DNA of 49,911 nucleotides from an uncultured Actinomycetes bacterium (GTDB lineage Bacteria > Actinomycetota > Thermoleophilia > Miltoncostaeales > Miltoncostaeaceae). Made by a program: the position numbers and the translations under genes. The DNA lies in contig CALMXK010000171.1 in the NCBI GenBank assembly GCA_937871165.1, positions 1 to 49,911 of the forward strand. Direction: 5' to 3'. This document shows positions 10,846 through 11,469 of the stretch, in pieces. The notes beneath the pieces were generated by a model that saw only the letters and a program-made list of their open reading frames with translations, searched no databases and was not told the origin of the DNA. The first letter of the stretch is position 1; each line of letters opens with the position of its first letter.

Positions 10846-11319
10846 ATGGCGATTTCGGTCGGAGATGAAGCGCCCGACTTTGCGTTGAAGGGCCCGGACG
10901 GGGAGCTCGTGAAGCTCTCCGACTACCGTGGGAAGAAGAACGTCGTCATCGTCTTCTTTCCCCTGGCGTTCAGTGGGATCTGCACCATGCAGCTGACCGA
11001 CATCGGCAGCCACGAGGCCCAGTACGCCGGATCCGATGCCCAGGTGCTCGGCATCTCCGTCGACAGCCATCACACCCAGGCCGCGTTCGCGAAGTCCCTC
11101 GGGCTGCGAAACACGCTGCTCCTGGCCGATTTCCATCCTCGCGGCGAAGTCGCGCAGCGCTACGGCGTCTACATGGATGAGTTCGGCATCTCGATGCGCG
11201 CATCCTTCGTCGTGGATCGCAACGGCATCATCCGCCACGCCGACGTGCGGGTGCCCAAGGAGGTTCCCGACGAGGCCGCCTACTTCACCACGCTTGCCGC
11301 CTGCAACATCGAAAGCTGA
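10846..11319 (+). CDS. AhpE-type one-cysteine peroxiredoxin
   Basis: Reduces peroxides in the cytoplasm, 157 residues. The AhpC/TSA fold begins [17 protein letters not shown]. The peroxidatic site is [14 protein letters not shown] with Cys46, very close to the mycobacterial AhpE pattern. There is no second Cys in the usual resolving position; the only other Cys is in ACNIES at the end. The ATG follows GAGGAG at 10835-10840. Six bases after its stop comes the metallothionein-like gene, probably on the same transcript, which links peroxide defence and metal or thiol handling. Confidence 0.92.
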
Positions 11320-11325
11320 GGACCC

Positions 11326-11469
11326 ATGGCCATCCAGTGCGCACAAGCCGTTTGCACCTGTCCGCCCGCCGAGGGAAGCGACTACTGCTCAGAGTTCTGC
11401 GAGACCTACCCTGAGCATGGGGAATGCCACTGCCACCACGCGAGCTGCACCGCCCCGCACCACCACTAG
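11326..11469 (+). CDS. Cys/His-rich 47-residue metallothionein-like protein
   Basis: A short ORF starting six bases after the peroxiredoxin stop. It encodes 47 residues with eight Cys (5, 10, 12, 21, 25, 34, 36, 41) and seven His (31, 35, 37, 38, 45-47). The arrangement CxC, YCSEFC, and CHCHHASC matches the bacterial metallothionein (BmtA/SmtA) pattern of CxC, YCSxxC, then CxCxHxxC, so it probably binds Zn, Cd or Cu ions in the cytoplasm. No strong ribosome site other than GAGGAC at 11318-11323, so it is likely coupled to the upstream gene. Confidence 0.8.
   Translation: MAIQCAQAVCTCPPAEGSDYCSEFCETYPEHGECHCHHASCTAPHHH

Follow-up and report, generated by a model that had tools for sequence, protein, structure and literature searches.

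We analyzed a 49,911-nucleotide contig from an uncultured member of the Miltoncostaeaceae (the window; coordinates below are on its plus strand unless stated otherwise) and identified, at positions 11326-11469, a gene of 47 codons plus TAG whose product is probably (at roughly 0.7) a small cytoplasmic metallothionein-like protein, predicted to bind a few d10 ions with the thiolates of its eight Cys and with clustered His residues. Judged by its sequence, the gene is a His-rich variant among known metallothionein-like proteins, with a genus-level association with the peroxiredoxin AhpE. The frame is exact, from the ATG at 11326 to the TAG at 11467-11469, and its translation, MAIQCAQAVCTCPPAEGSDYCSEFCETYPEHGECHCHHASCTAPHHH (47 aa), contains eight Cys (positions 5, 10, 12, 21, 25, 34, 36 and 41) and seven His (31, 35, 37, 38 and 45-47). 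These counts, the number of codons and the six bases that part the gene from ahpE were all exactly as given in the original prediction. The candidate ligands fall into four blocks: an N-terminal C-x4-C-x-C cluster (C5, C10 and C12; 11338-11361), C21-S-x2-C25 (11386-11400), C34-H-C36-H-H38-x2-C41 (11425-11448) and a C-terminal His-His-His tail (11458-11466).

The gene is very short and spurious open reading frames are numerous in a high-GC genome, which would favor a chance frame or an artefact. The motif C-x4-C-x-C...C-x3-C...C-x-H-x2-C occurred once over the six frames of the window and in none of 100 second-order Markov simulations of it. The composition of at least eight Cys and at least seven His per 47 residues was likewise never reached in these simulated windows; in the real window, however, one unrelated stretch on the minus strand attained it, so that composition is weaker evidence than spacing. 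Close relatives were found in five other Miltoncostaeaceae (Actinomycetota) genomes at differing loci, with E-values of 4.6e-10 to 4.7e-13 and 53-61% identity, and the frame was intact in each. Alignment of the six family members (alignment A1) indicated that all eight Cys, T11, S22, E33, H35, H37, H38, A43 and the HHH tail are invariant, and the ECHCHHxxC block was kept in all five relatives. Both the Cys/His spacing and the open frame, the two features whose loss in relatives would have spoken against the original prediction, were thus retained. NG86 dN/dS values for the 15 pairs were 0.16-0.47 in 13 and 0.77-0.85 in two; with only 43 codons compared, these are supportive rather than precise, and they lend support to putative purifying selection in most pairs. 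With this conservation and the simulations against it, a chance frame has a negligible probability, and we regard 11326-11469 as evidently a genuine gene and not an artefact.

The small gene was absent from most members of the Miltoncostaeaceae. A search of genome contigs yielded three true relatives. Among the other candidates, a Rhodothermus match (L038) was rejected since it lay antisense to a 317-codon ORF with only 16 residues matching, and a series of weak genome matches (L007-L027 as far as translated, L032-L034 and L040) was rejected as their translations lacked the motif. Plasmids searched by tblastn with three query proteins gave no match, and no relative was found among viral contigs.

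Searches of the Pfam and NCBIfam profiles returned no match of any kind for the 47-aa protein. The original prediction had proposed the Pfam metallothionein profile PF02069 as a check; it matched neither the protein nor anything else in its genome, and the family relatives scored at most 8.6 bits against a gathering score of 33 bits, while SmtA, the positive control with the same library, scored 75.5 bits (3.7e-21). Since PF02069 misses the family, the protein is better described as a remote relative than as a member of PF02069. A search of the phylum identified a wider set of short proteins (L077-L083 and L093-L097; ~46-58 aa) with the pattern CxH..CxC..YCSxxC..CxCGHxxC, for example MAEKTCGHEGCDCTVAEGETYCSEYCQRHGTHEGHVAHECGCGHSNCH. 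Profile-profile comparison of the window family (A1) with this wider actinobacterial set (A2) gave an E-value of 5.8e-12, and comparison of A2 with SmtA and the Pseudomonas metallothioneins (A3) gave 2.5e-7; as a control, columns were shuffled with Cys content kept (200 shuffles per comparison), and none of the 200 did as well in either case. The direct comparison of the window family with the SmtA set was weak (5.6e-4; 1/200 shuffles as good). The wider actinobacterial proteins thus apparently connect the 47-aa protein stepwise to SmtA and the Pseudomonas metallothioneins, with a homology that is remote. By this chain of profiles, together with the spacing conserved in five relatives, the metallothionein-like assignment of the original prediction was supported.

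In the alignment of the wider set (A5) all eight window Cys positions were invariant; its members differ from the window family in that the last cluster is CGHxxC, the HHH tail is absent and, in many, additional His lies after YCSxxC and ahead of that cluster. With the combined profile at E<=1e-4, members turned up in 14 of the 396 Actinomycetota genomes sampled (~3.5%), a count that includes the window's own genome and a second one from the Miltoncostaeaceae. The wider-set members tested had no Pfam or NCBIfam match above significance, we found no family name for the set, and no AhpE homologue was present at its loci within the ~2-3 kb examined at each (9 kb for L046).

The AlphaFold model of the 47-aa protein had a mean pLDDT of 87, from 11 sequences only and with metals omitted. 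A fold search of the PDB with this model gave three matches, none of them significant, the second being a Pseudomonas metallothionein (E 4.2). CP12 matches in the PDB searches were limited to the residues around CxxNPxAxEC and dismissed as chance. The fold matches also include a yeast Spp1 chain, matched over 22 residues (not significant), and one wider-set member weakly matched PF09889, a 'probable treble clef' (E 0.07). Both would suit a single-site zinc-finger protein, treble-clef or ribbon-like, in which one structural Zn sits on C5/C10/C21/C25 and the His-rich tail serves as a contact or a nickel/copper site, the protein as a whole working as binding module or as metallochaperone. Every one of these matches was below significance, however; eight invariant Cys in 47 residues are more than one site would use, and the CxC pairs and CxHxxC are as in metallothioneins, so this reading is rather unlikely. 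For a metallothionein-like protein, C5, C10, C21 and C25 would constitute a zinc-finger site like that of SmtA, and C12, C34, C36 and C41 with His residues would make up a second cluster; a further site, labile and of lower affinity, may be contributed by the HHH tail. The ions bound would be Zn, plus Cd or Cu(I) when present.

The gene upstream (10846-11319) encodes an AhpE-type peroxiredoxin (PF00578, 1.4e-31). Its best solved relatives were M. tuberculosis AhpE (Rv2238c/MT2298), matched over the full length at E ~5e-35, and its peroxidatic motif PLAFSGIC, common to both proteins, agrees with the Pxxx(T/S)xxC described for AhpE peroxiredoxins (PMC8945050). In addition to the peroxidatic Cys46 it has an extra C-terminal Cys153. 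A second Cys at about residue 150-155 was present in all 30 family AhpE homologues examined (10846-11319; L047-L076) and is absent from the one-Cys M. tuberculosis enzyme, which suggests a two-Cys mechanism in the Miltoncostaeaceae lineage; the C-terminal Cys could be the resolving residue.

The ahpE stop codon TGA (11317-11319) is followed by the six bases GGACCC and then the ATG of the small gene, so that the two genes share one reading frame in the window, with the stop and a pair of sense codons between them. This arrangement was absent from the original prediction. The purine-rich GAGGA in the junction TGA GGA CCC (11317-11325) overlaps the stop just 5' of the ATG and could plausibly serve ribosomes as their site in coupled translation; the junction may couple translation of the small gene to that of ahpE, in which case both products would appear together. 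No promoter or terminator pattern was found at the locus. In the congener G001, the one sister species with a sequence, the peroxiredoxin and the small protein form one uninterrupted frame of 208 codons (L045:3326-3952), which in the window is interrupted by the TGA at 11317-11319. The junctions of congener and window aligned codon for codon with no indels, the compared stretches including LAAC PISGRVRDLMQC, and the stop and no-stop states therefore differ by substitutions. Since the codon register is identical, an assembly error in the congener is unlikely, though possible with a single metagenome assembly, and on that assembly the frame is a possible peroxiredoxin-metallothionein fusion. A single-sequence model of the fused frame was unusable (pLDDT 40).

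The window genome and this congener were the only two of the six carriers with the small gene directly after ahpE. It adjoins clpP in three others (G012, G019 and G025) and lies in another place in G005. Elsewhere in the family, at those loci that extend far enough, a convergent rlmN or another gene comes after ahpE, without the small gene. In several other genera of the family, ahpE is directly followed by a gene for a ~95-aa protein (MFLLLGRYLKPVDEVE...) that is YCII-like in appearance (L055, L058-L060, L063, L065-L071, L073 and L075). The AhpE link of the small gene is thus apparently lineage-specific, at the level of the genus. The operon partnership with AhpE put forward in the original prediction was supported for the window's genus only (two genomes, one with the single frame); as a general redox partnership it is unsupported, since in the four other relatives the small gene and ahpE lie apart.

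M. tuberculosis AhpE needs mycothiol/mycoredoxin-1 as external thiols for its reduction (PMC4360819), so a thiol donor role for the small protein is conceivable. Together with the in-frame adjacency and the 208-codon frame of the congener, this would suit a thiol-rich peptide that is chiefly a redox partner of AhpE, either reducing or protecting the peroxidatic sulfenic acid or releasing zinc on AhpE-relayed oxidation, as a two-part or fused peroxide/zinc switch. We consider this very unlikely, as the pairing is confined to one genus, metal-bound thiols would be poor general reductants and the family AhpEs' own C-terminal Cys might resolve the sulfenic acid. A further reading takes AhpE and the metallothionein of the window's genus as one functional unit, a fusion in one species and a translationally coupled pair in the other. 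Within it, peroxide sensed by AhpE would oxidise the thiolates and release zinc, or thiols of the metallothionein would recycle AhpE. This too is quite unlikely; the literature searched contained no description of a peroxide-to-zinc relay. As a metallothionein-like protein, the small product would rather buffer metal, for example zinc set free when thiols are oxidised, with AhpE disposing of the peroxide.

The role of bacterial metallothioneins in peroxide defence is unsettled. In P. fluorescens, induction of the metallothionein occurs in stationary phase, and neither metal nor oxidative resistance requires it (PMC7387436), so a stress role for the small protein is not to be assumed. The in-frame pairing with AhpE, in one frame in the sister species, would offer a compact natural test of metallothioneins in peroxide defence. 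Current Pfam and NCBIfam profiles appear to overlook a group of short actinobacterial metallothionein-like proteins, of which the Miltoncostaeaceae branch is His-rich.

The 47-aa protein was compared with the SmtA/BmtA metallothioneins (PF02069; Synechococcus SmtA, 1JJD; Pseudomonas, 6GRV, 6GV6 and 6GV7). Both are of ~50 aa and have C-x4-C-x-C, YCSxxC and CxHxxC in common, in the same order. In the joint alignment A4, C5, C10, C12, C21, S22, C25, C36, H38 and C41 were invariant and correspond to SmtA C9, C14, C16, C32, S33, C36, C47, H49 and C52. The spacing of C5/C10/C12, which are invariant in the window family, the wider actinobacterial set, SmtA and the Pseudomonas metallothioneins, is identical to that of SmtA C9/C14/C16, and C21/C25 match, again with the same spacing, C32/C36, the second half of the SmtA zinc-finger site. 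With the SmtA ligands taken as those of 1JJD, eight of 11 ligand positions were matched in all rows of A4: the four zinc-finger ligands C9, C14, C32 and C36 (by C5, C10, C21 and C25) and C16, C47, H49 and C52 (by C12, C36, H38 and C41). C11, H40 and C54 had no counterpart; the position of C11 is Q7 in the window protein and His in all five relatives. The 47-aa protein differs from SmtA/BmtA in its shorter loop ahead of YCS, in its additional C34, H35, H37 and HHH tail relative to SmtA, and in that its gene adjoins ahpE.
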